Assembly: GCA_900450595.1 (NCBI GenBank)
Contig: UGGS01000002.1
Location: forward strand, 558,001-622,000
Source of the DNA: [Flavobacterium] thermophilum
GTDB lineage: Bacteria; Bacillota; Bacilli; Bacillales; Anoxybacillaceae
Length of the DNA: 64,000 nt
Direction of reading: 5' to 3'
Below, in pieces: positions 21,834 to 40,166 of this stretch; the stretch's first letter is position 1, and each line of letters begins with the position of its first letter. The notes under the pieces are model-generated. The model made no database searches and was not told the DNA's origin. It saw nothing but the letters and a program-made list of their open reading frames with translations. The position numbers and the translations under genes were made by a program.

Positions 21834-21849
21834 TGTGACGTTTATCACA
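21834..21849. promoter_or_regulatory. Fnr box (perfect TGTGA-N6-TCACA), distal to ric
   Basis: TGTGACGTTTATCACA matches the CRP/FNR consensus exactly. It is 44 bp from a second perfect box. For the - strand a TACAAT at 21811-21806 lies 30.5 bp from its centre, one base off the geometry seen elsewhere in the region, so it may drive the chemoreceptor-moeA operon. For ric it would lie at about -85.5. Confidence 0.75.
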
Positions 21850-21877
21850 TGCATCGATGTCTACTTTTTTTTACGTA

Positions 21878-21920
21878 TGTGAGATCCGTCACAACACCTT
21901 CGCGAAAAACACGGTATGCT
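21878..21920 (+). promoter_or_regulatory. Fnr-dependent promoter of ric/scdA
   Basis: Perfect box TGTGAGATCCGTCACA (21878-21893) with a -10 hexamer TATGCT at 21915-21920. Box centre to first -10 base is 29.5 bp, i.e. about -41.5 from the predicted start (class II). There is no good -35, as expected for an activated promoter. The ric ATG follows at 21957 behind aatggaggga. Confidence 0.85.
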
Positions 21921-21956
21921 GAATCTGTAGCGATTGGATCAATGGAGGGATGATGA

Positions 21957-22664
21957 ATGGAACAGCGGTTTACTGAACAATCATTGATTGGCGATATTGT
22001 CACTCAATTTCCGAAAGCGGCTGATTTGTTTAAAGCGCGGCGCATCGATTTTTGCTGCGGCGGACAGCGTCCGTTAAAAGAAGCGATCGAAGAGCTCGGA
22101 CTTGATGGCGAAGCGCTTCTTCGCGAGCTGAACACCCTTTACGCGGAAGCGCAAAACAAACCGGCCGGAAACTGGGGCGAAGCGCCGCTAGCCGACTTGG
22201 TCGATCATATCATCAACACGCACCACCGCTATTTGAACGAGGAACTGCCGCAGCTCAGCCCGTATGTCACGAAAGTATTGCGCGTGCACGGCATGCACCA
22301 TCCGCATCTTTCCCGCGTGCATAAACTGTTTCATGAGTTAAAAACAGAACTCGAGCAGCATCTCATTAAAGAGGAAACGGGAGCGTTCCCGCTCATTTTG
22401 CAATTTGCCGACAACCCATCGCCGGAGAACCGGGAGGCGGTCGAGCGAGCCGTCCGCGAACTGGTCAATGAACATGACGCAGCCGGCGATTTGATGAAAG
22501 AAATTCGTGAAATCACAAACGACTTCACCCCGCCAGAAGACGCGTGCGGCACGTATCGCCTCGTCTACAACCGGCTGGCCGCGCTTGAAGACGATTTGTT
22601 TACCCACATCCATTTGGAAAACAACATCCTCTTCCCGCGCGTGTTGGCGGCGGTGAAGGCATAA
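21957..22664 (+). CDS. ric: Iron-sulfur cluster repair di-iron protein (RIC/ScdA/YtfE family)
   Basis: 235 residues. The N-terminal domain carries the C-C-G-G motif (I-D-F-C-C-G-G-Q, about 29-36) and the rest is a hemerythrin-like four-helix bundle with the expected histidines (H-I-I-N-T-H-H, H-G-M-H-H, N-E-H-D, H-I-H-L-E-N) that hold a di-iron site. RIC proteins repair Fe-S clusters damaged by NO and oxidants. Control by a class II Fnr promoter and closeness to narK, NO reductase and fnr fit a role in nitrosative stress during anaerobic growth. Called by family; known as scdA in Staphylococcus. Confidence 0.92.
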   Translation: MEQRFTEQSLIGDIVTQFPKAADLFKARRIDFCCGGQRPLKEAIEELGLDGEALLRELNTLYAEAQNKPAGNWGEAPLADLVDHIINTHHRYLNEELPQLSPYVTKVLRVHGMHHPHLSRVHKLFHELKTELEQHLIKEETGAFPLILQFADNPSPENREAVERAVRELVNEHDAAGDLMKEIREITNDFTPPEDACGTYRLVYNRLAALEDDLFTHIHLENNILFPRVLAAVKA

Positions 22665-22728
22665 GCAAGCAAACCCTTCCCCCATTTCTAAGGTAAAGGC
22701 AGGCGCATTGAACGATAACGATAAAGAA

Positions 22729-22762
22729 CAGGGCCGCTCTTCGCTGGAAAGAGCGGCCCTGC
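22729..22762. terminator. Bidirectional terminator between ric and moaA
   Basis: gggccgctctt and aagagcggccc pair in an 11-bp stem, with runs useful for both directions. It separates the convergent ric and moaA genes. Confidence 0.8.
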
Positions 22763-22769
22763 TTCTTTG

Positions 22770-23795
22770 TTACCCACCGATATACGACATTTCAATTTTC
22801 GTCCGTTGTTTCGCCGTTTCTTCCGTCCGTTCTTCTGAATAGCGATCTGTCCGCTGGTTCCAAACCGCGGTGATCAACGACTTCAGTTCCTCTTTCGTCG
22901 CCCCAGCTCTCAGATTGTCTTTCAACGATACGCCCTTCGAGGCAAACAAACACGTATACAGCTTCCCGTCCGCAGAAATGCGCGCCCGCGTGCAGCTACG
23001 GCAAAACGTTTCTGTCACTGAGGCGATAAAGCCGACTTCCACCTCCGTGCCGACGTAGCGATAGCGGCTCGCCACTTCGCCGAAGTACGCTTTTTCAACC
23101 GGTTCGAGCGGATGCATGGCGTTGATTTGTTCATACATCTCTTTTTTCGTCACAACATGGGAGTAATCCCAGCCGTTCGTTGTACCGACGTCCATAAATT
23201 CAATGAGGCGGAGCGGAATGCCTTGTTCTTTGAAATAGGCCGCCATCGGCACGATTTGCGAGTCGTTCCACCCTTTTTTGACGACCATGTTCACCTTGAC
23301 GCCGAGCCCTGCCGCCCGGGCGGCTTCGATGCCTTTTAACACCGGGGCGACGCCGACGCCGATGCCGTTCATTTTGCGGAAAATGTCATCATCCAACGCA
23401 TCCAAGCTGACGTTGACGCGCTTTAGCCCGGCTGCTTTCAGCCGCTGCGCCCATTTCACTAAATGGACGCCGTTGGTCGTCAAGCCGATATCGCGCAGGC
23501 TGGGAATCGCAGACAACCGCGCAATGAGCGCGTCTAGATCGCGCCTTAAGAGCGGTTCGCCGCCCGTCAAGCGGATTTTTTCGACGCCAAGCTCGACAAA
23601 GCATTCCGAAAGAAGCGCCATTTCCTCGACCGTCAACAGCTCGCCTTCCGCCAAAAAGCGAAAATTCGGCCCGAACACTTCGGCCGGCATGCAATAGACG
23701 CAGCGAAAATTGCATTGGTCGATCACTGATAACCGCAAGTCGCGAAGCGGGCGGGACAGGCGGTCCATGACGTTCGTTCGGTTGCGCTCGCTCAT
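22770..23795 (-). CDS. moaA: GTP 3',8-cyclase MoaA
   Basis: 341 residues from the ATG at 23795, preceded by aaaggaggg. A radical SAM enzyme with the C-x3-C-x2-C cluster motif CNFRCVYC (Cys 28, 32, 35) and the second cluster cysteines near the C-terminus in F-C-R-S-C-T-R-A-R and L-Y-T-C. It ends in G-G, typical of MoaA. It makes 3',8-cyclo-GTP, the first Moco intermediate, with MoaC, which is not in the window. It follows modB on the same strand with 54 bases between, so both probably use the Fnr promoter upstream of modB. Confidence 0.95.
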
Positions 23796-23849
23796 CGCGC
23801 TCCCTCCTTTCTGTTTCGTTCGCCTCATGATGTTGCCAGGCGGCTTTGT

Positions 23850-24512
23850 TTATTCTCGTAAACGACCGAGTTTCGTCGCAAAGACCAATAAACTGAATGA
23901 CAATCCGATCGTGACCGCCACCCATGCCCACGCTAACTCCATTCGCCCCGATTCCATGGCCATATAGACGGCGGTCGGGATCGTTTGCGTTTTTCCTGGA
24001 ATATTGCCGGCAAACATGAGTGTTGCGCCAAACTCCCCGAGGCTGCGGGCAAACGACAGCACCGCTCCAGATAATAGTGCGTGTCTGGCAAGCGGCAGCG
24101 AAATATGCCAAAAGACTTGGCGCTCATTCGCCCCATCGATGCGCGCCGCTCCTTCAATGGTTGGATCGACCGCTTCGAGCCCGGTTTTGGCCGCCTGATA
24201 CATGAGCGGGAATGACACGACCACGGCGGCCATCACCGCGGCACCGGGCGTAAACAGTACGGTCGTATGAAACGACGCCTCGATCCACTGGCCGATGGGG
24301 CTATGTCGGCCAAACAAGACGACGAGCAAAAAACCGACGACCGACGGCGGCAACACGAGCGGCAACATAAACACCGTCTCTACCACCGTCTTGCCGCGAA
24401 ACCGGCGGCGCGCCATCCGCTTCGCCGCCGCTGTCCCTAAGACCGCGACAATCAAGCCGGCGAGGAGCGATACTTTGATCGATAACCAAACCGGTGACCA
24501 AAACGATGTCAT
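23850..24512 (-). CDS. modB: Molybdate ABC transporter permease ModB
   Basis: 220 residues, five to six membrane helices, with the EAA-type loop D-P-T-I-E-G-A-A-R-I-D-G-A (about 114-126) that contacts the ATPase and the A-R-S-L-G-E-F-G-A-T-L-M-F-A-G-N signature of the ModB/CysTW group (about 154-169). It belongs to molybdate uptake, supported by moaA directly downstream. The partner binding protein ModA and ATPase ModC are not here. A ribosome site is weak. Fnr control is predicted from the upstream box. Confidence 0.88.
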   Translation of the reverse strand: MTSFWSPVWLSIKVSLLAGLIVAVLGTAAAKRMARRRFRGKTVVETVFMLPLVLPPSVVGFLLVVLFGRHSPIGQWIEASFHTTVLFTPGAAVMAAVVVSFPLMYQAAKTGLEAVDPTIEGAARIDGANERQVFWHISLPLARHALLSGAVLSFARSLGEFGATLMFAGNIPGKTQTIPTAVYMAMESGRMELAWAWVAVTIGLSFSLLVFATKLGRLRE

Positions 24513-24544
24513 AGGTCAGCCTCTCTTTGTTCCATCTCCATCCT

Positions 24545-24587
24545 ACTATACGAAAACGAGCAGGCAAACGCTGTGACACTGCTCACA
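24545..24587 (-). promoter_or_regulatory. Fnr-dependent promoter of modB-moaA
   Basis: Perfect box TGTGACACTGCTCACA (24572-24587) and -10 TATAGT (24550 to 24545, - strand), with box centre 29.5 bp from the first -10 base. It lies 33 bases upstream of the modB start and shares the intergenic region with the fnr promoter. Confidence 0.82.
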
Positions 24588-24630
24588 TTGATTGTATCAT
24601 ATGGGAGGGGAAATCCGGGTTAGAAAAATT

Positions 24631-24705
24631 TGTGACAACCTGCACAAAAAAAGTGACAAACGGTGATTTTTTTCACTCTGTCCTTACTGTGATGTTTTTT
24701 ACAAT
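24631..24705 (+). promoter_or_regulatory. fnr promoter with three Fnr-like boxes
   Basis: TGTGACAACCTGCACA (24631-24646, one mismatch), GGTGATTTTTTTCACT (24662-24677, core GTGA-N6-TCAC complete) and TGTGATGTTTTTTACA (24688-24703, one mismatch). TACAAT at 24700-24705 is a -10 candidate 30.5 bp from the centre of the middle box. The third box would then cover the -10 and could repress. This suggests autoregulation of fnr with a positive and a negative site. Confidence 0.6.
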
Positions 24706-24736
24706 AGAAGCAGCCGAACAAATGGAGGTGTCAATC

Positions 24737-25447
24737 ATGGAACGGCAAAGCCAACTAGTGGAGAAACGCGATTTTTCCCTCTTGCGCTCGTGGCTGCAAT
24801 CGTCGAAAAAAGTGATTCCGCTTCGCAAACATTCGTTTTTGTTTCAAGAAGGGATGCCGGCCAATGAGCTGTATTTGATTCTTTCCGGTAAAGTGCAAGT
24901 AAGCAAAATTGGCCCGGACGGAAAAGAAATGTGTTTCCGCATTTGTGGAAGCGGGGAAATTGTCGGCGAGCTGACGCTGTTTACGAACGACCCGCGCTAT
25001 TTATTGACCGCCAAAGTGATTGAACCGGGCGAGGCAGCGGTGATGAATAAAAACGAACTCGAAGAGCAGTTGCTGATCAATCCCACCCTTACCCTTGAAT
25101 ATATGCGCTGGATGAGCAAGCATGCCCGGCGGACGCAGACGAAGTTTCGCGACTTGATGATGAACGGCAAAAAAGGGGCGCTCTATTCGACGCTCATTCG
25201 CCTATGCAACAGCTATGGCGTCCCGCTTGAAGATGGGAGTATTTTCATTGATGTGACGTTAAAAAACCAAGACTTAGCCAACTTTTGCGGCACGACACGC
25301 GAGAGCGTCAATCGGATGCTCAACGCCTTAAAACAGGAAGGGATTATCTCGATGAAGCGGGGGAAAATTACGGTTCATGATTTAAACTATTTGAAAGCGG
25401 AAATCCAATGTGAAGATTGCCCGGCGGATATTTGCTGCATTGAGTGA
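24737..25447 (+). CDS. fnr: Anaerobic regulator Fnr (Bacillus type)
   Basis: 236 residues from the ATG at 24737 behind aatggaggtg. An N-terminal cyclic-nucleotide-binding fold (about 20-130), a long dimer helix and a winged helix-turn-helix with recognition helix T-T-R-E-S-V-N-R-M-L (about 191-200) are seen. The C-terminus carries Cys 225, 228, 233 and 234 (C-x2-C-x4-C-C), the position of the [4Fe-4S] ligands in B. subtilis Fnr and unlike E. coli FNR. It should activate class II promoters with TGTGA-N6-TCACA boxes, of which many surround it. Divergent from modB. Confidence 0.93.
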   Translation: MERQSQLVEKRDFSLLRSWLQSSKKVIPLRKHSFLFQEGMPANELYLILSGKVQVSKIGPDGKEMCFRICGSGEIVGELTLFTNDPRYLLTAKVIEPGEAAVMNKNELEEQLLINPTLTLEYMRWMSKHARRTQTKFRDLMMNGKKGALYSTLIRLCNSYGVPLEDGSIFIDVTLKNQDLANFCGTTRESVNRMLNALKQEGIISMKRGKITVHDLNYLKAEIQCEDCPADICCIE

Positions 25448-25498
25448 GCAAAACGCCAAGGACAACAAAACGGATCGAGCCGTCTCAGGACACTGATG

Positions 25499-25552
25499 AA
25501 AAAAGCGCCCGGCCGGCCGTTGTTCGCGGCCTGCCGGACGCTCTTTTTTTCT
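25499..25552 (+). terminator. Terminator of fnr
   Basis: A long GC-rich stem, built from gcgcccggc and gccggacgc around an inner pairing, is preceded by A and followed by seven T. It lies in the region where nirK coding sequence was lost. Confidence 0.75.
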
Positions 25553-25602
25553 TGTCGGTTGTGATGCGAATCACTTCTGTTTCTTTTCACCGCCGTATAA
25601 TG

Positions 25603-25872
25603 CGTTTTCCCTTTGTCAATTTCAATGTCGGTGATTTGCGCCGTCATTTCAACGCGGACGTCATGCGGTCCGATCCGCTCCATTTTCAACGGCACCGGTG
25701 CTTGGTTCAATCCTTTATGCGCCGCTAACATGTTCGTAGCAGACTGTTGCGTAGTTGCCGCTGTTCCGTTTTTATTTTCCGCCTTTGCCTCTCCTCCTCC
25801 CCCGTTGCTGCATGCGGCCAGAAGCGATGCAACCAACGCAACTGACAACAACGTAGACACATTTCGTTTCAC
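25603..25872 (-). pseudogene. nirK: Copper nitrite reductase NirK, N-terminal remnant (lipoprotein signal plus about 60 residues)
   Basis: From a GTG at 25872 behind gaagggggag the frame gives a lipoprotein signal (hydrophobic core, L-A-A-C at about 18-21), a low-complexity linker and the segment PVPLKMERIGPHDVRVEMTA then Q-I-T-D-I-E-I-D-K-G-K. That matches the start of the mature Geobacillus NirK as I remember it. Right after it the match stops and the frame runs into unrelated sequence and the fnr terminator, so all copper sites and some 250 residues are gone. The Fnr promoter upstream is still in place. Confidence 0.8.
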
Positions 25873-25910
25873 TGTTTTCTCCCCCTTCAGTTGATTTGAT
25901 TTACACCTTC

Positions 25911-25953
25911 AGCGTACGCCATTTCGGCTTCCCCTCTAGTGATTTGTATCACC
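25911..25953 (-). promoter_or_regulatory. Fnr-type promoter of the nirK remnant
   Basis: AGTGATTTGTATCACC (25938-25953) has the complete GTGA-N6-TCAC core. TACGCT (25916 to 25911, - strand) is placed 29.5 bp from its centre, the same geometry as the live promoters. It now drives only a truncated gene. Confidence 0.7.
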
Positions 25954-26118
25954 AAGGAACACGCATATTTGAAGGGTTTGTGAAACGTTGAACAATATGT
26001 TTATCGCTACTGTAAAAACGATAAAGAGCGTGCCCACGTTGGCTAACGGAAAACGGGCATTTCGTTTTCCGAATCGTCATCAGTCCCCCCTTCAGTCCAT
26101 CATGCCTAGTGAACAATA

Positions 26119-26155
26119 AAAAGAGGCCAAAAGCGGATACTTTTGACCTCTTTCG
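26119..26155 (-). terminator. Terminator of narK
   Basis: aaagaggccaaaag pairs with cttttgacctcttt (one bulge or mismatch), with flanking A/T runs, just after the narK stop. The gap 25954-26118 holds no gene. Confidence 0.75.
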
Positions 26156-26159
26156 ATGG

Positions 26160-27335
26160 TTACGATGCGTACCGTTTCGCCGATTCGCCGGCTTTTTTGC
26201 CGAAGACGATTCGATTCAATAAGAAGCAGATCAAGGTAAACAGGCTGAGAAGCATAAACCCGAGCACGTAAGAACCAGTCACATCTTTGATGATGCCCAT
26301 TAAAATCGGCGGGAAAAAGCCGCCCAGTCCGCCCCAGGCGCCGACAAGGCCGGTGACGGCGCCCGTTTCGGCTGGGAACAGCTGCGGCACGAGTTTGAAC
26401 ACCGCACCGTTGCCCAGCCCAGACATCACGGCCACAAACAAACAAGCCGCTGTCATCACCCAAATGTTTTCCATTCCAAATACGATCGTCAAGGCGCCGA
26501 TTGTCATTCCAGCGTAGACGAACGTCAACACCCGTTCAGCTCCGATTTTATCGCCAAGATAGCCGCCGACTGGCCGCGCAAGCGTAGCGAGTACAGTAAA
26601 CCCAGCCGCGCGCATCCCAGCATCCACTGGCGTCAACCCATACAAGTCAACAAGGAGCGACGGCAAGTAAATGCCAAAGGCGACAAATGCTCCGAATGTG
26701 ACGAAGTAAAACAGCGACAACGTCCACGTATGTTTGTATTTCAACACCGACAGCGATTCGCGCATCGTTTTTTGTTGTTTTGGCTTCGGCATATCCGGTG
26801 TGAAAAACCAAACGAGAATAAGCATGACGACAACGGGGATGATCATTCCCCAAAACGCCCACGAAACGCCGAAAGCGGCAGCGATCGATGGAACCGAAAA
26901 ACTGGCGACCGCTGTGCCGAAGTTGCCCATCGCGTTAATCCCGAGCGCTGTTCCTTGCTTTTCCGGCGGAGTCAAGCGCGACACGAACGTTACCGAGATC
27001 GCGAACGACGTCCCGGCCATACCGATGAAAAACGCCCAAAACAGAAGCATCGCATACGAATCCGCAAACCCTGCGCCGATGAGCGGAACGATTAAAAACA
27101 GGAGCAGCAGCGAAAACAGCCTTCGTCCGCCGATCCGGTCCGTCCAAATGCCAAGCGGCAAACGCATGATCGAGCCGAGCAGCACCGGAATGGCGACTAA
27201 AATGCTTTTTTGCGTCGATGTCAGCCCGTACATTTCTTGAAACGTGCTCGCCAGCGGCGAAAAGACGGCCCAAACCGCGAATGAAAACGTCATGGCCAAT
27301 GTTGTGATCGGCAGCAGCGCCTTTTGTTTATTCAT
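26160..27335 (-). CDS. narK: Nitrate/nitrite transporter NarK (MFS)
   Basis: 391 residues from the ATG at 27335 with tgggagggg in front; 12 membrane helices. The nitrate-porter features are seen: R-L-P-L-G-I-W-T-D-R-I-G-G-R-R (about 58-72) with the key Arg, and a glycine-rich A-N-A/G-M-G-N-F-G-T-A segment around 130-140, and G-L-V-G-A-W-G-G-L-G-G-F-F-P-P in the second half (about 327-341). It moves nitrate in and/or nitrite out. It sits behind a class II Fnr promoter. No narGHJI is in this window, so nitrate reductase must be elsewhere if present. Confidence 0.93.
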   Translation of the reverse strand: MNKQKALLPITTLAMTFSFAVWAVFSPLASTFQEMYGLTSTQKSILVAIPVLLGSIMRLPLGIWTDRIGGRRLFSLLLLFLIVPLIGAGFADSYAMLLFWAFFIGMAGTSFAISVTFVSRLTPPEKQGTALGINAMGNFGTAVASFSVPSIAAAFGVSWAFWGMIIPVVVMLILVWFFTPDMPKPKQQKTMRESLSVLKYKHTWTLSLFYFVTFGAFVAFGIYLPSLLVDLYGLTPVDAGMRAAGFTVLATLARPVGGYLGDKIGAERVLTFVYAGMTIGALTIVFGMENIWVMTAACLFVAVMSGLGNGAVFKLVPQLFPAETGAVTGLVGAWGGLGGFFPPILMGIIKDVTGSYVLGFMLLSLFTLICFLLNRIVFGKKAGESAKRYAS

Positions 27336-27384
27336 GAAAAGCCCCTCCCAAACTTTCAAAATTTGTGACGTTGTTTGTACTTCC

Positions 27385-27427
27385 ATCATACGCAGGAGAA
27401 GGAAACGGATTTGTGAGGTTGATCACA
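27385..27427 (-). promoter_or_regulatory. Fnr-dependent promoter of narK
   Basis: Perfect box TGTGAGGTTGATCACA (27412-27427) and -10 TATGAT (27390 to 27385, - strand), centre-to-hexamer distance 29.5 bp. The start codon follows about 43 bases after the predicted transcription start. Confidence 0.87.
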
Positions 27428-27480
27428 TTCTTGCCTGTTGTCACCATTTTGCCACAAGCGTTGTCACGGTTTTGTCACAT

Positions 27481-27520
27481 CCAAAAAAAAGAAAAAGCCC
27501 GTCCCCAAAAGGAACGGACA
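27481..27520 (-). terminator. Terminator of the ABC/NEW3 operon
   Basis: On the - strand gtccgttcc-tttt-ggggacgggc is followed by tttttctttttttt. It lies about 100 bases after the permease stop (27616) and just upstream of the narK promoter region. Confidence 0.7.
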
Positions 27521-27615
27521 CGATTTGGCAGAACGTTTTTCACATACGAACGATAAGAAACGCTGTTGGGCGCACACATCTCTTCCGCCCCGTCTACGGC
27601 AAACAACTTGTTTTC

Positions 27616-29638: not shown

Positions 29639-29640
29639 GC

Positions 29641-32398: not shown

Positions 32399-33517
32399 TT
32401 ACCGTTGGCTTCGCTCTTTTGTCCGCAGCGCCTTTGGAATGTAAACACAATACGGCTCGCTTTCCAAATAGTCGCCCGTTACAGCGTAAGCGCGTGAACG
32501 AGAGCCGCCGCACACATATCGGAACTCGCAGACGCCGCATTTTCCTTTATATTTGTCCGGATTGCGCAAGTCTTGGAAAATCGGCGAGTGTCGGTAAATG
32601 TCCGCCAGCGGCGTTCCCCTGATGTTCCCGGCTTTGACTGGCAGCAGCCCGCTTGGGTAGACATCGCCGATATGGGAGATAAAAACAAAGCCGTTGCCGT
32701 CGTTTACTCCTTTCGGCGCGCGGCCGAGCCCGTCGACTTGTCCGGTCAACCCTTGGTTCAACACATCTTCGTAACGGATGCCGCCTTTTGTCGTTTTTCC
32801 TTCGCGTATTTTCGCCTGCAGCACAACGCGGCGGTAATGCTGGCCGGCTGTCGTTTTAATGTCAAACGGGACGCGCTTGCTCGTTTCATACAACCAGCGG
32901 AACACCCGCTCATGCTCGATGGGGGAAATCATGTCCTCCTCCTTCCCCCTGCCTGTCGGCACAAGGAAAAAGACGCTCCAAAGGACGCATTTCAGCTTCT
33001 CAACCAATTCCGCCATTTCATCAAGCACATGAACGTTGTATCGCGAAATGACGGTGTTGATTTGCACGGGAATGTCGAGCTCATGCAAGTATTGAATCGC
33101 ACGGATCGTCAAATCAAACGAGCCGCTCACGCCGCGGAAATGGTCGTGAATCTCGGCGTTCGGCCCGTCAAGGCTGAACGCCCAGCGCGACAGACCGACC
33201 TCTTTTGCTTTGCGGATCGCCTCTTTCGTCACGTTCGGCGTCGCGCTCGGCGTCATGGACACGCGCAATCCTTTATCGATCGCATATTTCGCTAAATCGT
33301 ACACATCCGGGCGCATGAGCGGATCGCCGCCCGTAAAGACGAGCATCGGCTGATCCATCTCGTAAATCTCATCGATCAGTTTTTTCCCTTCCTCAAACGT
33401 CAATTCGCGCGGATCGCGATGGTATTGCGCTTCGGCGCGGCAATGAAGGCACTTGAGTTGACAAGCTCTCGTCAATTCCCAAATCACAATAAACGGATTT
33501 TCATTAAAATCGCGCAT
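32399..33517 (-). CDS. Radical SAM/SPASM protein (AhbD/NirJ-like, TIGR04053-type)
   Basis: 372 residues from the ATG at 33517 behind aaggaggggg. Radical SAM motif CQLKCLHC (Cys 19, 23, 26), then F-T-G-G-D-P-L-M (about 60-67) for SAM binding, and a C-terminal SPASM region with C-G-V-C-E-F-R-Y-V-C-G-G (about 332-343) and a final Cys near Y-C-V-Y that bind auxiliary clusters. The family is related to heme d1/siroheme-route enzymes and peptide maturases. No precursor peptide is seen beside it. A perfect Fnr promoter suggests an anaerobic job, perhaps heme or cofactor synthesis; the substrate is unknown. Confidence 0.85.
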   Translation of the reverse strand: MRDFNENPFIVIWELTRACQLKCLHCRAEAQYHRDPRELTFEEGKKLIDEIYEMDQPMLVFTGGDPLMRPDVYDLAKYAIDKGLRVSMTPSATPNVTKEAIRKAKEVGLSRWAFSLDGPNAEIHDHFRGVSGSFDLTIRAIQYLHELDIPVQINTVISRYNVHVLDEMAELVEKLKCVLWSVFFLVPTGRGKEEDMISPIEHERVFRWLYETSKRVPFDIKTTAGQHYRRVVLQAKIREGKTTKGGIRYEDVLNQGLTGQVDGLGRAPKGVNDGNGFVFISHIGDVYPSGLLPVKAGNIRGTPLADIYRHSPIFQDLRNPDKYKGKCGVCEFRYVCGGSRSRAYAVTGDYLESEPYCVYIPKALRTKERSQR

Positions 33518-33539: not shown

Positions 33540-33582
33540 ATTGTACCGCAACATTCAGGCGCGTTATGTGATATCGATCACA
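33540..33582 (-). promoter_or_regulatory. Fnr-dependent promoter of the radical SAM gene
   Basis: Perfect box TGTGATATCGATCACA (33567-33582) and -10 TACAAT (33545 to 33540, - strand), 29.5 bp from box centre to first -10 base. The predicted start lies near 33533, some 16 bases before the ATG, so the leader is very short but still holds the ribosome site. Confidence 0.85.
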
Positions 33583-33751
33583 TCCACAGCAAAGCCACAA
33601 TAGAGGGCGATCGTACCATGGGCGAAGATGACAGCCATCTGAACAGGCGGTATAATATATTGACCCGCCATACGCCCAAAAAGTAAAGCAAGGATGGCTC
33701 TTCTGATTGAAAAAAGTGTATGCTGTGTCTGCTTCGGCCACAATTCCCCCT

Positions 33752-34330
33752 TCACCGGTACTCTTCCTCCGTATTGACATTGCGCCATACGGTTTCATCC
33801 GCGGCAAGCTGTTGGGCGTCAACATAGCGGACGCGGGCGCGGTCAAGGAGCGAGATCATCCGACGTTCGCCGGCGTCAAGCAGCTCGGCGATCACGGAGC
33901 GAAGCCGACGGTGGTATAAGGCGACCAATGGCTCTGGGCGGCCGCCATGGAGCGGGACGATGGCGTCAAACATCGGATCGATATAGGAAGCAAGCCGCTC
34001 TGTCACTTCCCGCCGCATGTACGGCATGTCGCACGGCAAGACGAACACCCAATCCGCTCGGCTCTGTTCCATAACGGTGTAAAGGCCGGCCAGCGGCCCA
34101 CAGCCGCGGCAGCGCTCGACATCGAGCAGCACCGGGATATCCGTTTGGCGGCGGAATTCATCGACAAGCGACGGGTGGCTGACGATATACAATTCATCCG
34201 CGATCGGATCGAGCGCCGCGACCGACCAAGTGAAAAACGGGGCGCCTTCGTGCAGCGCAAACGCCTTCGGCCGCCCGAACCGGCGCGACTGGCCGCCGGC
34301 GAGCACCGCTCCGGCAATGGCTCGTTTCAT
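33752..34330 (-). CDS. mobA: Molybdenum cofactor guanylyltransferase MobA
   Basis: 192 residues from the ATG at 34330 (gaggggatagag in front). Starts with the nucleotide-binding signature G-A-V-L-A-G-G-Q-S-R-R-F-G (about 6-18), Lys in R-P-K-A, and the metal-binding P-C-D-M-P (about 93-97). It links GMP to molybdopterin to form the dinucleotide cofactor used by respiratory nitrate reductases. MobB is encoded at 18909-19409. It is preceded on the same strand by a DUF2249 gene and its terminator, so it may have its own promoter. Confidence 0.92.
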   Translation of the reverse strand: MKRAIAGAVLAGGQSRRFGRPKAFALHEGAPFFTWSVAALDPIADELYIVSHPSLVDEFRRQTDIPVLLDVERCRGCGPLAGLYTVMEQSRADWVFVLPCDMPYMRREVTERLASYIDPMFDAIVPLHGGRPEPLVALYHRRLRSVIAELLDAGERRMISLLDRARVRYVDAQQLAADETVWRNVNTEEEYR

Positions 34331-34388
34331 CTCTATCCCCTCTTTCCGAACATCATCTGTCCCTACCGTACCATACGAACCGGCGAAA

Positions 34389-34416
34389 AAAAAGATTTCC
34401 GCCTGTCGACGGAAAT
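34389..34416 (-). terminator. Terminator of the DUF2249 gene at 34435
   Basis: gatttccg and cggaaatc form a perfect 8-bp stem with an 8-base loop, followed on the - strand by eight T. It lies 19 bases after the DUF2249 stop. Confidence 0.85.
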
Positions 34417-34434
34417 CCCTATGGAGCGGATGAT

Positions 34435-34668
34435 TTATTTTTTGCCGATCGCCACCCGCCATACGTCCGGCCCTTCCTCTAAGTACTCCCACGTAAACTG
34501 ATCCGGACGCTCCATCATGAATTGGTATTGCAGCGGACGCGGGTCATGGTCATTCGTCAGCTCCATTACTTCCCCCGGCTTCAAACTGTCAAACAGCCGA
34601 AAAATTGCCGGATGGCGATCCCGCGGCGGATAGTCCGGGGCGTGGATTTTGGCGGCAAATTGGTTCAT
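34435..34668 (-). CDS. DUF2249 protein
   Basis: 77 residues from the ATG at 34668 (caaaggagg in front). The D-x-R-x-x-x-P-x-I-F-x-x-F-D-x-L-x-P-G-E start and L-T-N-D-H-D-P-R-P-L-x-Y-Q-F-M are the DUF2249 hallmarks. These small TusA-like fold proteins occur next to hemerythrins, NO reductases and other nitrogen-oxide genes; their biochemical role is not known to me. Two more copies lie at 40191-40637. A class II Fnr promoter precedes it, and a palindrome overlaps the predicted start site. Confidence 0.88.
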   Translation of the reverse strand: MNQFAAKIHAPDYPPRDRHPAIFRLFDSLKPGEVMELTNDHDPRPLQYQFMMERPDQFTWEYLEEGPDVWRVAIGKK

Positions 34669-34688
34669 AACATTGGCCTCCTTTGTAG

Positions 34689-34751
34689 TATAATGAATTA
34701 TATACTTTATCATAACCGCTTGAACCTTGGGGGGTAGTGACGAGCGTCACA
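34689..34751 (-). promoter_or_regulatory. Fnr-dependent promoter of a DUF2249 gene, with palindrome at +1
   Basis: AGTGACGAGCGTCACA (34736-34751, one outer mismatch), -10 TATGAT (34714 to 34709, - strand), distance 29.5 bp. The palindrome TATAATGAATTATA (34689-34702) covers the predicted start and leader, so a repressor may also act here. The box lies between this gene and a divergent small gene. Confidence 0.78.
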
Positions 34752-34797
34752 GCCCGAAGGTGAACATGTTCAATCCCCATGAAAGGAGAAATGGCGG

Positions 34798-34965
34798 TTG
34801 GAAGAGCTTGTTGGCTTTTGCGCGCAATGCGGCAAGCCGATCCATTGTCTGCATGGGTTTTTAAACGGCGTCGTCAGCCGAGAAACAGAGACGTTGTACT
34901 GCTTTCCATGCTATGACAAGCAAAAGGAAATGGAACACACCACGCCGGACAAATGCCACAAGTGA
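34798..34965 (+). CDS. Small zinc-ribbon protein (55 residues, TTG start)
   Basis: From TTG at 34798 behind gaaaggagaaatggcgg. The peptide has two C-x2-C knuckles: F-C-A-Q-C-G-K-P-I-H near the start and Y-C-F-P-C-Y near residue 36, plus a Cys-His near the end, so it probably binds zinc. It is divergent from the Fnr-controlled DUF2249 gene and shares its regulatory region. A clear terminator follows the stop. I do not recognise a named family. The good ribosome site, the Cys pairs and the terminator make it more than chance. Confidence 0.6.
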   Translation: MEELVGFCAQCGKPIHCLHGFLNGVVSRETETLYCFPCYDKQKEMEHTTPDKCHK

Positions 34966-34989
34966 TTGAAAACGCTCACAAACGAAGGG

Positions 34990-35042
34990 AGCTGACCCAA
35001 AAATCCGCTAAAAAGCGGACTTTTGGAGCCAGCTCTTTCTTT
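34990..35042 (+). terminator. Terminator of the small zinc-ribbon gene
   Basis: gagctgacccaaaa-tccgct-aaaa-agcgga-cttttgg-agccagctc forms a nested stem followed by tttcttt. The rest of the gap up to 35403 holds no gene; TATAAT at 35237-35242 is a possible -10 for the next gene. Confidence 0.75.
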
Positions 35043-35403
35043 ATTAAGTAAGCCGTGTATTGATCATGAATGATTCTGAATCAAACCCTTTTATTTATAA
35101 GGAAATTCAATTTTCGTCAAAACAATGCCGCTGCCGGGATTAACATGACCGTACAGGCTAAAACGCACTCCTTTTCCTGGACGGATACAAAGCGACAATG
35201 ACACAAAACGTTATTTTCAAATTTCTACGAATCATTTATAATATGAATGGGAAACGATGATCCTCGTTTGTTCTGCGCTACAATCCCATCCCTTTCCTCA
35301 ACCACTTACTCTACACGCTCGTTTCCCCCAATCCTTAAAAGAAAGGAGCGATTCATCATCACCCACTTTTCCATGGCTACTATATAAGAAGGGAGGATTT
35401 TCC

Positions 35404-36339
35404 TTGGAAGCGATATTGAACCAAATTTTGGACAAGCTCCAAATGATCGAACATGAAGTAAGCGATATCAAAACAAACATGGCAACGAAACAGGAACTCG
35501 AAGAAGTGAAGCAAAACTTCTCAACAGAGCTTGAGGATATTAAAGCCAACATGGCAACGAAACAAGAACTTGAAGAAGTGAAGCATAGTTTCACAAAAGA
35601 GATCGAAGACATCAAAGCCAACATGGCTACCAAGCAAGAGCTTGAAGACATCAAAGCCAACATGGCTACCAAGCAAGAGCTTGAAGACATTAAAGCCAAC
35701 ATGGCTACCAAGCAAGAGCTTGAAGACATCAAAGCCAACATGGCTACCAAGCAAGAGCTTGAAGACATCAAAGCCAACATGGCTACCAAACAGGAACTTG
35801 AAGACATCAAAGCCAACATGGCTACCAAACAGGAACTTGAAGACATCAAAGTCAACATGGCTACCAAGCAGGAACTTGAAGACATCAAAGCCAACATGGC
35901 TACCAAGCAGGAACTTGAAGACATCAAAGCCAACATGGCTACCAAGCAGGAACTTGAAGACATCAAAGCCAACATGGCTACCAAGCAGGAACTTGAAGAC
36001 ATCAAAGCCAACATGGCTACCAAGCAAGAACTTGAAGACATCAAAGCCAACATGGCTACCAAGCAGGAACTTGAAGACATCAAAGCCAACATGGCTACCA
36101 AACAGGAGCTTGAGGACGTAAAGAACAACCTAATGAAAGAATTAGATCATGTCAAAGCCAATATGGTCACAAAGCAAGAATTTGTTTTCCTCCAACAAGC
36201 AGTGCTTGAAACAAATGAAATCGTTAAGAAAATAGAACAAAACATGGAAAAGCACGAACGGATTTTAGATCTTCTTTCCAGGCGTTCGATTGAACACGAA
36301 GCGGCAATTTCCAGCATTCGTCTTATAAAGACAACATGA
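35404..36339 (+). CDS. Coiled-coil protein with 13 tandem 13-residue repeats
   Basis: 311 residues from a TTG at 35404 behind gaagggagg; an ATG farther upstream gives a longer version without a good ribosome site. A short amphipathic N-terminus (about 1-20) is followed by degenerate repeats and then 13 near-identical units of D-I-K-A-N-M-A-T-K-Q-E-L-E (35608-36114, 39 bp each), then a helical C-terminus of about 70 residues. No signal peptide or membrane segment, very high charge. It resembles DUF1640-like or t-SNARE-like helical proteins only in general. The neighbours give no role. The repeats are almost identical at DNA level, so copy number is probably unstable. Confidence 0.8.
   Translation: MEAILNQILDKLQMIEHEVSDIKTNMATKQELEEVKQNFSTELEDIKANMATKQELEEVKHSFTKEIEDIKANMATKQELEDIKANMATKQELEDIKANMATKQELEDIKANMATKQELEDIKANMATKQELEDIKANMATKQELEDIKVNMATKQELEDIKANMATKQELEDIKANMATKQELEDIKANMATKQELEDIKANMATKQELEDIKANMATKQELEDIKANMATKQELEDVKNNLMKELDHVKANMVTKQEFVFLQQAVLETNEIVKKIEQNMEKHERILDLLSRRSIEHEAAISSIRLIKTT
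35608..36114 (+). repeat. Thirteen tandem 39-bp repeats
   Basis: 507 bp equal to 13 units of 39 bp, in frame with the coiled-coil gene. Units differ mainly in caagcaagagctt, aaacaggaactt and aagcaggaactt synonymous variants; one unit has Val for Ala (gtcaac). The unit length divides by three, so all six frames stay open, which creates false long reading frames on both strands. Confidence 0.95.
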
Positions 36340-36385
36340 GCAAGGAGGAAGCATCTCTCCTTGCCTTTCTGAGGTGCGGCCGCCT

Positions 36386-36529
36386 TTATAGTAAAGGAAG
36401 AAACATCTCCATCGGAATGCGTTCGACCATTTCGTAAACTACATGAGCCATATGATCCAGTGGAATGATATCGCCTGGCAACGTGAGATGATTCATGGTA
36501 CACTCTTCAAAAATATGATGATGTTTCAT
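36386..36529 (-). pseudogene. IS1182-type transposase, N-terminal remnant
   Basis: 47 residues starting M-K-H-H-H-I-F-E-E with LPGDIIPLDHMAHVVYEMVE resemble the start of IS1182-family transposases. After F-L-P-L the frame hits a stop; the next frame reads Y-Y-K-G-G-R-T, the usual continuation, before homology is lost. So it is a frameshifted stump between the coiled-coil gene and the NO reductase. Family call by eye. Confidence 0.6.
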
Positions 36530-36614
36530 AAACGAATCGCTCCTTTTTCGGTGATAGTGGTTTATGGTAACTCTATTCTGCCAGAAAACGAACGATTCTC
36601 TTCTATATTTCGTG

Positions 36615-36667
36615 TAAAAACGGGCTAATCCCAAAACGCATTCGCGTTTTGGGTCAGCCCGTTTTTG
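36615..36667. terminator. Strong bidirectional terminator after the NO reductase gene
   Basis: aaaaacgggct...cccaaaacgc-attc-gcgttttggg...agcccgttttt: a perfect outer 11-bp and inner 10-bp stem, A-run on one side and T-run on the other. It directly abuts the NO reductase stop codon at 36668. Confidence 0.92.
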
Positions 36668-39031
36668 TTATTCTTCCTCCGCCAAATTCGCCACCGACAG
36701 CTCTTCCCCTTCGCCGTGCGTTGGTTTGCGCAAATGGAACATCGCTTTGATGGCAAAGACAAGCAAGGCGGCGACGCCGATCAAAAAGATCGTATCCGGA
36801 ACAAAGCGGACAAGCAGCAAGTTTTGGACGATATCTTGTTGTAAGAACGAAGGTGAACGCGACGCCCAATAGCCGTGTTCAAACGCTTCTTTGATTTGCA
36901 GCACCCCAACCGGGAGAAGCGTGATGAGAACCATGCCAGCCAGGCCGATGTTCAGCATCCAGCAAGAGAATTTCAGCCATTTGTCGTTCCATGCTTCCGG
37001 TTTGACGATGTTGCGCAGCGAATAAAGGAGCACGGCGATCGCAAACATGCCATACACGCCCATCATCGCTCCGTGGCCGTGAGCCGGCGTTAAGAATTGC
37101 CCGTGTTCAAAGTAGCTGACCGCCGGCAAGTTGATCAGAAAGCCGAGCACCCCTGCGCCGACCAAATTCCAAATGGCGGTTGAAATCAAGAACCAGAATG
37201 TGGCCTTGTACGGGAAGTTGACCCCGCCGTCGCGCATCATTTTGTACTGCTCATACGCTTCCAAAATAAGGAGCGTGAGCGGAATCACTTCGAGCGCCGA
37301 GAACACCGCGCCAAGGGCGATCCATACTTCCGGCGAACCGTTGTAATAATAGTGGTGGCCGATGCCGATCACACCGCTGCCCAATAAAATCGTAAATTGG
37401 AAGTAGAGCGCTCTGACCGTCGATTTTTTCGTTACGAGCCGCAATTGAACGAGCAAGAACCCGATGACAACAACGGCGAACACTTCAAAAATGCCTTCCA
37501 CCCACAAGTGGATGATCCACCAGCGCCAGAAGTCAGCCATCGTAAAGTTCGTATCCGGCTCGATAAAGAACGCGAAGATGTAAAAGAACGGAACGGCGAT
37601 GGCCGAATAAAACAGCAAGTGGATGAGCCCGCCTTTGTCGCTTTCTTGCTTCAGCCCGCGTTTGACGCCGCGGAAGACGATGACCAGCCAAAGCAGCATG
37701 CCGACGACTAGAATAATTTGCCAAACGCGGCCAAGTTCGATGTATTCCCAACCTTGGTGGCCAAACAAGAACCAGCTGTTCCCTAAGTAGCCGTTGACGC
37801 CGAGCCATTGGCCGATCATGCTGCCGCCGACAAGGACGACAAGCGCCCAGAAGAGCAAATCAACAAGCAACCCTTGCTTTTTCGGTTCTTGCCCACCGAC
37901 AAGCGGGGCGATGAAAATCCCCATGCCAAGCCATGCGGTCGCAATCCAGAAAATCGCCAGCTGCAAATGATACCCTTTGGCGATGTTAAACGGCAATAGG
38001 TCATGGATCCATTTGATGCCAAAGAAGCTGTCCGGTTCCGTATAGTAGTGGGCGAGCAGCGCCCCGAACATCGTTTGGACGAAAAAGAGCGCCGATACAA
38101 CGACGAAATATTTGCCCGCTTTCACTTGCGACGGAGTCAGCGGCTGCCGCCGCAAATCGATGACTGGAAACTTCCCTTCTGCATACGCTTCTTGCATGCT
38201 TAACTGATAGCGGTGGAACACATACAAAATGATCCCGATGAACAAAATCAAAATCGTGACGCTCGCGCCGCTCCACCATACCGCGGAAAACGACATTGTA
38301 TTGCCGGCGTCCTCATAGTACGGCCAGTTGTTCGTATAGGTGATGTGGTCGCCAAGTCTTGGCGTGCTTGACAGCCAAGCGGTCCAGAAGAAAAAGTCGG
38401 CAATTTGCCTAATTTGATCGCCCTCGGCGACCCAAGCGCGATCCGCTTTTGGCATGTCGCTTTCTTTGATCAATCCTTTTTTCAATCCCCAGCCGTCACC
38501 ATTGGTGAACACGTCGCGGTAATAGTCGCGCACTTTTTCCAACCCGTAGACTTGCGCATCTGTCAGGACGAGAACATCCGTAACCGGGTTGTAGCGGTTT
38601 TTTCGCATTTCCTTGATGACTTGTTCGCGGATGATCGTTTTCTCATCGGCGGTTAAATCGGCAAACGGTTTGTGATACCGCTCTTTTGCTTTGTAATCTT
38701 GCATGCCTTCCGTATAAATTTTCAACGCTTCCGCCGTATAGTCCGGCCCCATATACGACCCGTGTCCAAGCACGGTTCCGTAATCCATCAGCCCGTATTT
38801 TTGGAAGACGGCCTGCCCGCCGATGATCGTTTCTTTCGTCATCAACACTTGGCCGTCTTCACTGCGCACTTCCTTCGGCCTTGGCGCCATTTCTTTAAAA
38901 ATCCAATACCCGCCGACAAGCAGGACGGTAAAGCTGATCACAATAGTGAAAATGAGAATCGATTTGAGAAAACTGTTGGTCGTTTGCCGCCCCGTCCGCA
39001 TGTTGGGGCGAACGGATCGATGAACTTCCAT
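36668..39031 (-). CDS. norZ: Quinol-dependent nitric oxide reductase (qNOR/NorZ)
   Basis: 787 residues from the ATG at 39031 behind aaggaggttgg; a TTG three codons earlier overlaps the ribosome site. An N-terminal membrane helix (about 22-44) and a soluble cytochrome-c-like domain without a C-x2-C-H heme motif (about 45-225) replace NorC, followed by about 13 helices of the NorB core with the heme/iron histidines, e.g. G-Y-H-L-Q-L-A-I-F-W and H-L-W-V-E-G-I-F-E-V-F, G-H-H-Y-Y-Y-N and H-G-H-G-A-M-M-G-V-Y-G. It reduces NO to N2O with quinol. The length equals that of the G. stearothermophilus enzyme of known structure. It is divergent from a Crp/Fnr gene. Confidence 0.95.
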   Translation of the reverse strand: MEVHRSVRPNMRTGRQTTNSFLKSILIFTIVISFTVLLVGGYWIFKEMAPRPKEVRSEDGQVLMTKETIIGGQAVFQKYGLMDYGTVLGHGSYMGPDYTAEALKIYTEGMQDYKAKERYHKPFADLTADEKTIIREQVIKEMRKNRYNPVTDVLVLTDAQVYGLEKVRDYYRDVFTNGDGWGLKKGLIKESDMPKADRAWVAEGDQIRQIADFFFWTAWLSSTPRLGDHITYTNNWPYYEDAGNTMSFSAVWWSGASVTILILFIGIILYVFHRYQLSMQEAYAEGKFPVIDLRRQPLTPSQVKAGKYFVVVSALFFVQTMFGALLAHYYTEPDSFFGIKWIHDLLPFNIAKGYHLQLAIFWIATAWLGMGIFIAPLVGGQEPKKQGLLVDLLFWALVVLVGGSMIGQWLGVNGYLGNSWFLFGHQGWEYIELGRVWQIILVVGMLLWLVIVFRGVKRGLKQESDKGGLIHLLFYSAIAVPFFYIFAFFIEPDTNFTMADFWRWWIIHLWVEGIFEVFAVVVIGFLLVQLRLVTKKSTVRALYFQFTILLGSGVIGIGHHYYYNGSPEVWIALGAVFSALEVIPLTLLILEAYEQYKMMRDGGVNFPYKATFWFLISTAIWNLVGAGVLGFLINLPAVSYFEHGQFLTPAHGHGAMMGVYGMFAIAVLLYSLRNIVKPEAWNDKWLKFSCWMLNIGLAGMVLITLLPVGVLQIKEAFEHGYWASRSPSFLQQDIVQNLLLVRFVPDTIFLIGVAALLVFAIKAMFHLRKPTHGEGEELSVANLAEEE

Positions 39032-39064
39032 ATGAGCCAACCTCCTTCTCGTTTGTTCGCCCCC

Positions 39065-39107
39065 ATTGTAGCGTGCTGAATCGAGGCCGGTTTGTGAGCC
39101 GGGGCAA
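39065..39107 (-). promoter_or_regulatory. Candidate promoter of the NO reductase gene with half-site TTGTGA
   Basis: TACAAT (39070 to 39065, - strand) is a -10 candidate 34 bp before the ATG. Centred 29.5 bp upstream of it is TTGTGAGCCGGGGCAA (39092-39107), a TTG-N10-CAA dyad with only one good TGTGA half. The class II spacing suggests a weaker or different Crp/Fnr-family site, possibly for the divergent regulator. Confidence 0.5.
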
Positions 39108-39115
39108 ATGTCCGT

Positions 39116-39158
39116 TATGATTTATATCACAGCTTTATGGCGTGAGAATGTATACAAT
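39116..39158 (+). promoter_or_regulatory. Fnr-type promoter of the second Crp/Fnr gene
   Basis: TATGATTTATATCACA (39116-39131, one mismatch) and -10 TACAAT (39153-39158), distance 29.5 bp. It drives the regulator at 39264 and leaves a leader of about 100 bases. Confidence 0.72.
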
Positions 39159-39263
39159 GAAGGCAGAAAAGGCCAAACGGCGCAGATGTTCAAAAAGAGA
39201 AAAGCATCGATGCTCTGTTGACAGCCGCCACACTTTTGTCACATTTCCAAAGGAGAGAACGCC

Positions 39264-39956
39264 ATGGCGAACCATTGGATGAAAGACCGCTTAAAAGCTG
39301 TTCCGTTGTTTCGCGAACTGTCCGATTACGAGCTCGAATCGCTTGTCGCCATTTCCCACGTGCGCGTTTACAAGCCGCGGACGTTTGTCTTTATGCAAGG
39401 CGACCCGCTCGAGCGAGTCTATTTCATTCATTCCGGCACGGTAAAAATTTATAAAACGGACTTCAGCGGGAAAGAACAAATCGTTTCGATTTTGCAGACG
39501 GGAGAAATGTTTCCGCATGCCGGTTTTTTCTTAAAAGGCACCTATCCGGCCCACGCCGAAGTGGTCGAGGAAGCGACATTGATCGCGATCCCGATCCACG
39601 ATTTCGAACAAGTGCTGATGGCGAGCCCTGAACTTTGCATAAAACTGTTTCGCGTCATGGGCGAAAAAATCGTTGATTTGCAAAACCGGCTCGAAGCGCA
39701 AGTGCTCCATAATACGTACGAACAAATCGTGTTGCTTTTGTTGCGGCTGACGCGCACGAACGCCGTCAAACAAGGGAAATGGCACCGTCTCACCGCCCAT
39801 GTGACAAACCGTGAGCTGGCCAATATGATCGGCACCGCCCGCGAAACGGTCAGCCGGACGTTGAGCCAGCTGAAACGGAAAGGGTTGATCCATGTCGACG
39901 AACACGGCTTTTATTTGATCGACCAAGAAGGGCTTGAGCAAGAAATCTTTTTCTAA
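39264..39956 (+). CDS. Crp/Fnr-family regulator without iron-sulfur cysteines
   Basis: 230 residues behind ccaaaggagag. The cyclic-nucleotide-binding fold (about 12-125), dimer helix and winged helix with recognition segment T-A-R-E-T-V-S-R-T-L (about 193-202) are clear. It lacks the C-terminal cysteine cluster of Fnr; its single Cys near 136 is not a cluster. It is divergent from the NO reductase gene, a place typical of NO-sensing DNR/NnrR-type regulators, so control of NO reductase is likely but not shown. The R-E-x-x-x-R pattern suggests a TGTGA-type half-site. Its own promoter has an Fnr box. Confidence 0.87.
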   Translation: MANHWMKDRLKAVPLFRELSDYELESLVAISHVRVYKPRTFVFMQGDPLERVYFIHSGTVKIYKTDFSGKEQIVSILQTGEMFPHAGFFLKGTYPAHAEVVEEATLIAIPIHDFEQVLMASPELCIKLFRVMGEKIVDLQNRLEAQVLHNTYEQIVLLLLRLTRTNAVKQGKWHRLTAHVTNRELANMIGTARETVSRTLSQLKRKGLIHVDEHGFYLIDQEGLEQEIFF

Positions 39957-40123
39957 TCCCCTTTTGTCTAACATGCGGCGCATCACGGAAATGGGGATGA
40001 ATGCCGCTCTTGCCTCCACTTGAGAGCCGGATGGCGAGGAAATGCTTGGACATCGCACGTTCAGAACAAACCATCCATCGTTTTCGAACCGGCGGCAGAC
40101 ACATCGTGTTCCGACCGCTTGGT

Positions 40124-40166
40124 TGTGAGCTATATCACAACATCTAACAATGAAAATGATTATCAT
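40124..40166 (+). promoter_or_regulatory. Fnr-dependent promoter of the DUF2249-membrane protein operon
   Basis: Perfect box TGTGAGCTATATCACA (40124-40139) and -10 TATCAT (40161-40166), 29.5 bp from the centre. The -10 lies inside a Fur-like box, so two regulators probably meet here. Confidence 0.85.
40151..40165. promoter_or_regulatory. Fur box over the -10 element
   Basis: TGAAAATGATTATCA matches the Bacillus 7-1-7 Fur box TGATAATNATTATCA at 14 of 15 positions. It overlaps the -10 hexamer of the Fnr promoter by five bases, a position that would repress when iron is present. Confidence 0.75.

Follow-up and report, generated by a model that had tools for sequence, protein, structure and literature searches.

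Genes and promoters of the island

The subject of this analysis is a set of promoters in [Flavobacterium] thermophilum (Anoxybacillaceae; assembly GCA_900450595.1, contig UGGS01000002.1), spanning positions 21834..40166 of a 64-kb stretch of DNA that is referred to here as the window. These promoters combine a CRP/FNR-type box, TGTGA-N6-TCACA, with a -10-like hexamer at a nearly constant distance. We scanned the window for the box with up to two mismatches and sought -10-like hexamers on both sides of each match. The number of bases from box to hexamer is called the gap; a gap of 21 corresponds to 29.5 bp between box centre and hexamer, and a gap of 22 to 30.5 bp. Coordinates without a prefix are window positions, C1 and C2 are contigs of the organism's own 3.73-Mb genome (G000), and other G and L labels denote genomes and loci.

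The ric promoter (21878..21920, plus strand; perfect box TGTGAGATCCGTCACA, N21, TATGCT) precedes the gene of a ric/scdA-type iron-sulfur cluster repair di-iron protein (21957..22664, plus strand; NCBIfam TIGR03652, 294 bits, cut-off 205). On the minus strand, a promoter at 21806..21849 (perfect box 21834-21849, N22, TACAAT) leads into 17484..21671, which encodes a soluble chemoreceptor-like protein (partial matches under the cut-off), MoeA, MobB, MoaE and a YwiC-like protein. The modB-moaA promoter (24545..24587, minus strand; perfect box at 24572, N21, TATAGT) precedes modB, for a molybdate permease, and moaA (22770..24512, minus strand; TIGR02141 and TIGR02666). The fnr promoter (24662..24705, plus strand; box GGTGATTTTTTTCACT, N22, TACAAT) precedes the window's Fnr, here FnrA (24737..25447, plus strand), which matches the Pfam families cNMP_binding and HTH_Crp_2 and has a C-terminal CX2CX4C motif and the recognition helix RESVNR. 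A second Fnr, FnrB, 57% identical to FnrA, is encoded just outside the window at C2:555144-555797, 27 kb from FnrA.

Beside fnr lies the remnant of a copper nitrite reductase gene, which we take to be nirK (25387..25872, minus strand), recognized by blastn against locus L022 and giving no Pfam match. Both ends of the gene are retained, an internal stretch of about 0.85 kb of the L022 gene (364-aa frame) is gone, and the promoter box persists (promoter 25911..25953, minus strand; two-mismatch box at 25938, N21, TACGCT). Another box inside the remnant, at 25560 (TGTGATGCGAATCACT, gap 20, TATAAT), has no gene visible downstream and perhaps reflects coding conservation. The narK promoter (27385..27427, minus strand; perfect box at 27412, N21, TATGAT) precedes the gene of a NarK nitrate/nitrite transporter (26160..27335, minus strand; TIGR00886, 263 bits, below the cut-off of 312).

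In the right half, the radical SAM promoter (33540..33582, minus strand; perfect box at 33567, N21, TACAAT) precedes the gene of a TIGR04053 radical SAM/SPASM protein (32399..33517, minus strand), whose next best match, the heme b synthase AhbD, is under its cut-off. The DUF2249-mobA promoter (34709..34751, minus strand; one-mismatch box at 34736, N21, TATGAT) precedes genes of a DUF2249 protein and a MobA-like protein (33752..34668, minus strand). The qnorB promoter (39065..39108, minus strand; box TTTGCCCCGGCTCACA at 39093, N22, TACAAT) precedes the gene of the quinol-dependent nitric oxide reductase qNorB (36668..39031, minus strand), which matches the solved structure 3ayf over residues 1-782 (1709 bits). 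The crp2 promoter (39116..39158, plus strand; one-mismatch box TATGATTTATATCACA, N21, TACAAT) precedes the gene of Crp2, the window's second Crp/Fnr regulator (39264..39956, plus strand; recognition helix RETVSR), which is without a CX2CX4C motif. Finally, the DUF2249-operon promoter (40124..40166, plus strand; perfect box, N21, TATCAT) precedes genes of two DUF2249 proteins, a heme-copper-oxidase-like membrane protein and a FeS_assembly_P protein (40191..42230, plus strand). The membrane protein gives a weak COX1 match over residues 15-111, and a sequence search of solved structures found no relative of it (best E 0.22). The window also encodes, at 35404-36339, a coiled-coil-like protein that contains numerous near-identical ATKQELEDIKANM repeats and has no visible link to the regulon.

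Spacing of the box and the -10 hexamer

An earlier note on this DNA had named eight promoters (ric, modB, nirK remnant, narK, radical SAM, DUF2249-mobA, crp2 and DUF2249 operon) as sharing one spacing. When re-measured, all eight had a -10-like hexamer exactly 29.5 bp from the box centre, and the hexamers were identical to those given in the note. Perfect boxes make up five of the eight; those at 34736 and 39116 each have a single mismatch, and that of the nirK remnant has two, with a hexamer, TACGCT, that is poor (3 of 6 matches to TATAAT). The fnr promoter (24662, two-mismatch box) and the chemoreceptor-moeA side (21834, perfect box) stand at 30.5 bp, one base off as the note had said, and so does the qnorB promoter (39093, two mismatches, TACAAT), which it had not named. 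None of the 11 promoters has a -35 element: the best match to TTGACA at spacers of 16-18 was 1-3 of 6 in every case.

Ten perfect boxes occur in the whole 3.73-Mb genome, six of them within this 18 kb, and the reversed box pattern has no perfect occurrence anywhere in the genome. The genome-wide scan with the box plus 29.5-bp model that the note had proposed gave six mismatch-free sites (box, N21, TANNNT), five of which are in the cluster. When the six perfect window boxes were read in both directions, TANNNT stood at gap 21 in 5 of 12 readings; the background frequency is 0.0067 per position, and the other gaps had a mean of 0.15. The corresponding P is about 1e-8 with the gap fixed beforehand and about 4e-7 after multiplying by 41 gaps. 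When boxes of two mismatches or fewer were taken from the whole window, the signal was weaker, with 10 gap-21 readings from 39 boxes, while another gap reached 7.

The same promoter type was found elsewhere in the genome. A gap-21 promoter with TATAGT precedes narG at C1:948512, and another, at C1:718305, precedes an oxidase operon encoding a short hydrophobic protein (identified by eye) and COX2-type and COX1-type subunits. From the operon layout we take this to be a ba3-type oxidase (cbaB, cbaA); its subunit I reaches the cut-off of none of the NCBIfam oxidase families that it matched.

Conservation of the promoters in the family

We compared 13 named loci of Geobacillus, Parageobacillus and Anoxybacillus, with genes assigned by position, and 41 genomes of the family. 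These 13 loci seem to come from genomes of the larger set, so the two sets of counts are not independent. The closest named relatives of FnrA are those of Geobacillus species (90-95% identical). As far as the named loci extend, ric, modB, narK and nirK are again preceded by gap-21 boxes, and the fnr and moeA-side boxes stand at gap 21 or 22. A gap-21 box with TATGCT precedes ric in 10 of the 13 loci, the other three beginning too near fnr or showing none. The moeA-side promoter has gap 21 in L022, L024, L027 and L033. A two-mismatch gap-21 box similar to that of the nirK remnant was found in L022-L025 and L033; in L027 it lies farther from fnr.

Orthologous promoters of seven genes were then scanned at 191 loci (best 30 loci per gene), allowing up to three mismatches and accepting gaps of 19-23 alike. 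FnrB-type loci (L089-L094), second narG copies (L188, L189 and eight more) and a 42% qNor relative (L234) were left out, and two worn oxidase sites of genomes without Fnr (L148 and L158) were counted as calls. The results showed gap 21 at 156 loci, gap 22 at 28, gap 23 at one and no site at six; gap 21 thus accounts for 156 of 185 calls and gap 22 for 28. All 28 narG loci had gap 21, as did all 25 DUF2249-operon loci, each with TATCAT. For radical SAM, 25 of the best 30 loci had gap 21 and five gap 22, with TACAAT in all 30; for the oxidase, 27 of the best 30 had gap 21 and one gap 22. Gap 21 was found at 27 of the best 30 crp2 loci; of the remaining three, L061 offers no more than 124 bp of upstream sequence, and the two boxless loci belong to relatives of 62-63% identity. 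The fnr loci divided into 12 at gap 21, 11 at gap 22 and one with none in range (n = 24), and the qnorB loci into 12, 11 and one at gap 23 (n = 24). The six siteless loci are L061 (short upstream), L085 (a gap-21 box about 860 bp upstream, beyond range), L063, L064, L156 and L157. Because orthologues mix gaps 21 and 22, the one-base-off promoters of the window look like drift round the same ruler. Over 281 distinct boxes, TANNNT stood 184 times at gap 21 and 48 times at the next most frequent gap, a histogram that is biased because the loci were picked for this regulon.

A gap-21 box before korA (2-oxoacid:ferredoxin oxidoreductase-like) was rejected as a member of the set. It was kept at 9 of the 30 loci examined, eight times with two mismatches and once with three, and in genomes of the genus Geobacillus only.

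The oxidase promoter and the presence of Fnr

A search of the 41 genomes with FnrA found a homologue (E 1e-40 or better) in 37, G030 having only a broken one, and none in G011, G015, G034 and G039, which belong to three genera. An intact oxidase box (at most one mismatch, gap 21) is present in 36 of the 41 genomes, comprising 36 of the 37 with an Fnr homologue and none of the four without. The five genomes lacking it are these four and G035; Fisher's test, which takes no account of relatedness, gives p 4.9e-5. When 11 oxidase loci were aligned, the sequence downstream of the promoter proved to have stayed similar, whereas each of the four Fnr-less genomes shows a worn box. This loss amounts to a natural experiment in favour of the proposed reading of the box, and the decay might resemble that of an unused activator-dependent promoter. 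G028 retains the oxidase box with only an FnrB-type Fnr and no Crp2 match. Two species lacking narG also have gap-21 boxes: in G002 the gene behind the box is ric-like and in G003 it is ywiC-like, both identified by eye.

Two further features were observed at these genes. The 11 aligned oxidase loci have conserved TTCACA/TGTGAA half-sites on both sides of the box, which to us resemble ResD sites. Ten relatives (G016, G020, G022, G023, G025, G032, G033, G036, G038 and, on another contig, G012) have an additional narG with 66-68% identity to the first copy, and in nine of them it lies within about 7 kb of fnr; the organism's own genome has one narG only.

An unselected set of boxes was also examined. 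It took in every perfect box of G000-G004, 10 of the 16 in G005, and the full 27 that the four Fnr-less genomes contain. Gap 21 occurred at 32 of 63 boxes in the six Fnr-bearing genomes and at 4 of 27 in the Fnr-less ones (p 0.002); with the own genome removed, the first count was 26 of 53 (p 0.003). Three of the four Fnr-less cases are copies of one conserved promoter, TGTGAAATTNNTCACA-N21-TATCAT, which lies with conserved flanks at C1:59970-60012 (minus strand) of the own genome and also occurs in G001, G002, G011 (twice) and G034. The gene behind it in G002 encodes a beta-propeller lipoprotein, and in G011 it lies before this gene in pieces; the frame in the own genome is short. When this promoter was left out, post hoc, the counts were 29 of 60 against 1 of 24.

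Several of these observations weigh against control of the promoters by Fnr at one fixed spacing. The promoter at C1:59970 persists in the Fnr-less G011 and G034, and a box with gap 21 is therefore no proof of Fnr control. The Fnr-bearing side of the unselected test consists of the own genome and five genomes of one other genus, and the number of perfect boxes per genome does not tell the two groups apart, being 2-10 without Fnr and 6-19 in the rest. At the oxidase, the -10 hexamer is worn as well as the box in three of the four Fnr-less genomes (G039 retains TATGAT), so the promoter decayed as a whole. G035 has Fnr homologues yet a degenerate oxidase box with three mismatches; it shares its genus with the Fnr-less G034, and loss in that genus therefore need not follow Fnr. 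The second narG copies L188 and L189 are without such a box. The geometry, which the earlier note had called strict, is better described as dominated by gap 21, since gap 22 occurs at 28 of 185 orthologous promoters and at about half of those of fnr and qnorB.

Candidate regulators: FnrA, FnrB and Crp2

In CRP, the residues R-E-x-V-x-R of the recognition helix read TGTGA. FnrA, FnrB and Crp2 all carry R-E-x-V-x-R in this helix, and because they share these residues the box cannot tell which of them reads it. They differ elsewhere: FnrA (CEDCPADIC) and FnrB (CEGCPPELC) have the C-terminal CX2CX4C motif and a common FRDL stretch, whereas Crp2 is without the motif, and its matches to Crp domains are all below the NCBIfam cut-offs. 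Bacillus Fnr is described, in passages of PMC3520743, as using three C-terminal cysteines in a CX2CX4C motif together with an aspartate as iron-sulfur ligands. In B. subtilis Fnr that aspartate is D141. One or both of the predicted [4Fe-4S] paralogues FnrA and FnrB would read the boxes at low oxygen. The earlier note had tied the island into one regulon under the window's Fnr; the common promoter type agrees with this and extends further, to narG and the ba3-type oxidase, but control by FnrA itself is less settled, and its role as reader of the boxes is partly supported. A division of labour among FnrA, FnrB and Crp2 is likely.

One form of this division is possible, though we lean against it: the qnorB, crp2 and DUF2249-operon boxes would be read mainly by Crp2 and Fnr would act on the nitrate half, with box and spacing in common. 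Crp2, lacking the iron-sulfur motif, may then sense NO as DNR does. Its helix, R-E-T-V-x-R, is of the same type as that of Fnr. A Crp2 of at least 78% identity is present in 28 of the 41 genomes; none of the 24 genomes that encode qNorB (E 1e-100) lacks it, nor does any of the 25 that encode the heme-copper-like protein (E 1e-60). G005 and G008 have narG without Crp2. In G010, Crp2, qnorB and the DUF2249 operon are present and the boxes are kept, while a close FnrA and narG are absent. The weak halves of the boxes are conserved as well: the distal half is TTTGY at 21 of the 23 qnorB boxes shown and TATGA at 26 of 27 crp2 boxes, and the proximal TCACA is perfect in both. However, G010 still carries an Fnr of the FnrB type, and the DUF2249-operon box is symmetric, as Fnr-type boxes are. 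Moreover, Crp2 adjoins the NO genes, and the co-occurrence may therefore only reflect one island.

It is highly improbable that the cluster boxes are operators of Rex, a repressor that senses reduced nicotinamide adenine dinucleotide (NADH) and whose site has the same half-sites (TTGTGAA-W4-TTCACAA in the abstract of PMC2883068). Perfect boxes do stand before cydA-like (C2:753934) and ldh-like (C2:822249) genes of the own genome, named by eye, neither with a -10 at gap 21, and that of the ldh-like gene has the Rex form; these two are perhaps Rex sites. A repressor, however, requires no fixed spacing, none of the 22 Rex-form boxes examined has a -10 at gap 21, and we rejected Rex for the cluster since none of its six perfect boxes shows the form TGTGAA-N4-TTCACA. 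The regularity of the spacing makes the box with gap 21 a help in telling Fnr-type from Rex sites, although the rule is not exclusive.

The idea that the common spacing is chance, or a selective reading of -10-like words, is hardly credible: TANNNT is a loose word, two-mismatch boxes reach 7 at another gap against 10 at gap 21, and the korA box proved poorly conserved, but the perfect boxes give P of about 1e-8, the promoters are conserved across up to eight of nine genera, and Fnr-bearing and Fnr-less genomes differ in gap-21 frequency. The earlier note had judged chance unlikely. Taken over the whole set, chance is refuted, though individual promoters, that of the nirK remnant for one, are less certain.

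Comparison with known systems

In Escherichia coli, CRP/FNR class II promoters have the activator at -41.5, a weak or absent -35 element and contacts between activator and polymerase. The promoters described here are alike in that the box lies near a predicted -41.5 and the -35 is weak or absent, as far as sequence can tell. Bacillus subtilis Fnr binds CRP-like TGTGA-N6-TCACA boxes centred near -41.5 and has three C-terminal cysteines; its regulon, as reportedly described by Cruz Ramos in 1995 and Reents in 2006, is said to comprise narK, narGHJI, fnr and ywiC. The two systems thus share the box and an Fnr with C-terminal cysteines that would bind an iron-sulfur cluster. They differ in that the island here has more promoters of this type (ric, modB-moaA, the moeA operon, radical SAM, DUF2249 and qnorB), and in that the ba3-type oxidase and three CRP/FNR paralogues are also found here.

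DUF2249, which we take to be COG4309, has a link to nitrogen-oxide respiration that is already known. In the sections of PMC1274295 concerned, dnrN, norB, narK and COG4309 are placed in nitrogen-oxide regulons and COG4309 is suggested to be relevant to NO reductase; those DNR, NnrR and NsrR regulons differ from the present one in their regulators and, for NnrR and NsrR, in their boxes, and Geobacillus does not occur in the text. DUF2249 proteins are also expressed along with nitrate respiration in Thermus thermophilus, as DrpA and DrpB, with drp under the CRP-like DnrT (passages of PMC6282519), and DUF2249 genes are expressed in denitrification by the haloarchaeon H. mediterranei (passages of PMC11218638). 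Both belong to other phyla and have other promoters. The Bacillus licheniformis cluster nar-fnr1-narK1-fnr2-qnorB-dnrN likewise carries a pair of Crp/Fnr genes next to narK, qnorB and a gene of the NO response, but the sections of PMC4719734 that describe it give no promoter geometry (the term "binding site" does not occur in them) and no DUF2249 operon. Among the matches listed in the open literature, a scope that leaves most subscription journals outside, no study of Geobacillus Fnr promoters was found, and the passages of PMC8139620, PMC8055807 and PMC7726195 contain nothing on Bacillus Fnr promoter spacing.

Proposed mechanism and meaning

Taken together, the boxes, their spacing and their conservation point to a nitrate/nitric-oxide island of a Geobacillus that is probably run from class II CRP/FNR promoters. 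In the proposed mechanism, a CRP/FNR dimer would bind TGTGA-N6-TCACA in place of a -35 element and contact RNA polymerase, and transcription would start from the -10 hexamer 21 bases past the box. The earlier note had placed the box centre at about -41.5, as in class II; the fixed geometry, the missing -35 and the conservation agree with this class, while the position itself relies on a presumed start about 7 bp after the -10. FnrA, FnrB or both would activate the promoters at low oxygen, Crp2 would probably act on those of qnorB, crp2 and DUF2249, and narG and the ba3-type terminal oxidase, elsewhere in the genome, would be driven from the same promoter type.

A more detailed history is tentative and somewhat unlikely as it stands. 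Three paralogues with one helix would comprise the iron-sulfur pair FnrA and FnrB and a cluster-less, perhaps NO-sensing Crp2. Within this family, a small FnrB regulon of the ba3-type oxidase, ric and ywiC, found in species without nitrate reductase, would be the oldest part of the network, and the nitrate and NO island would have joined it later by taking on its promoter format; at qnorB and crp2, the distal half-sites, weak but conserved, would set the dominant regulator.

The candidate regulon is solid, and its class II design is mostly what is expected for an oxygen-sensing switch of this familiar kind. It provides a compact regulon for thermophilic nitrate respirers, and a defined promoter type now covers DUF2249 proteins, the TIGR04053 radical SAM protein and the heme-copper-oxidase-like membrane protein. 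Throughout the family, it also links the ba3-type oxidase with control of the Fnr type.

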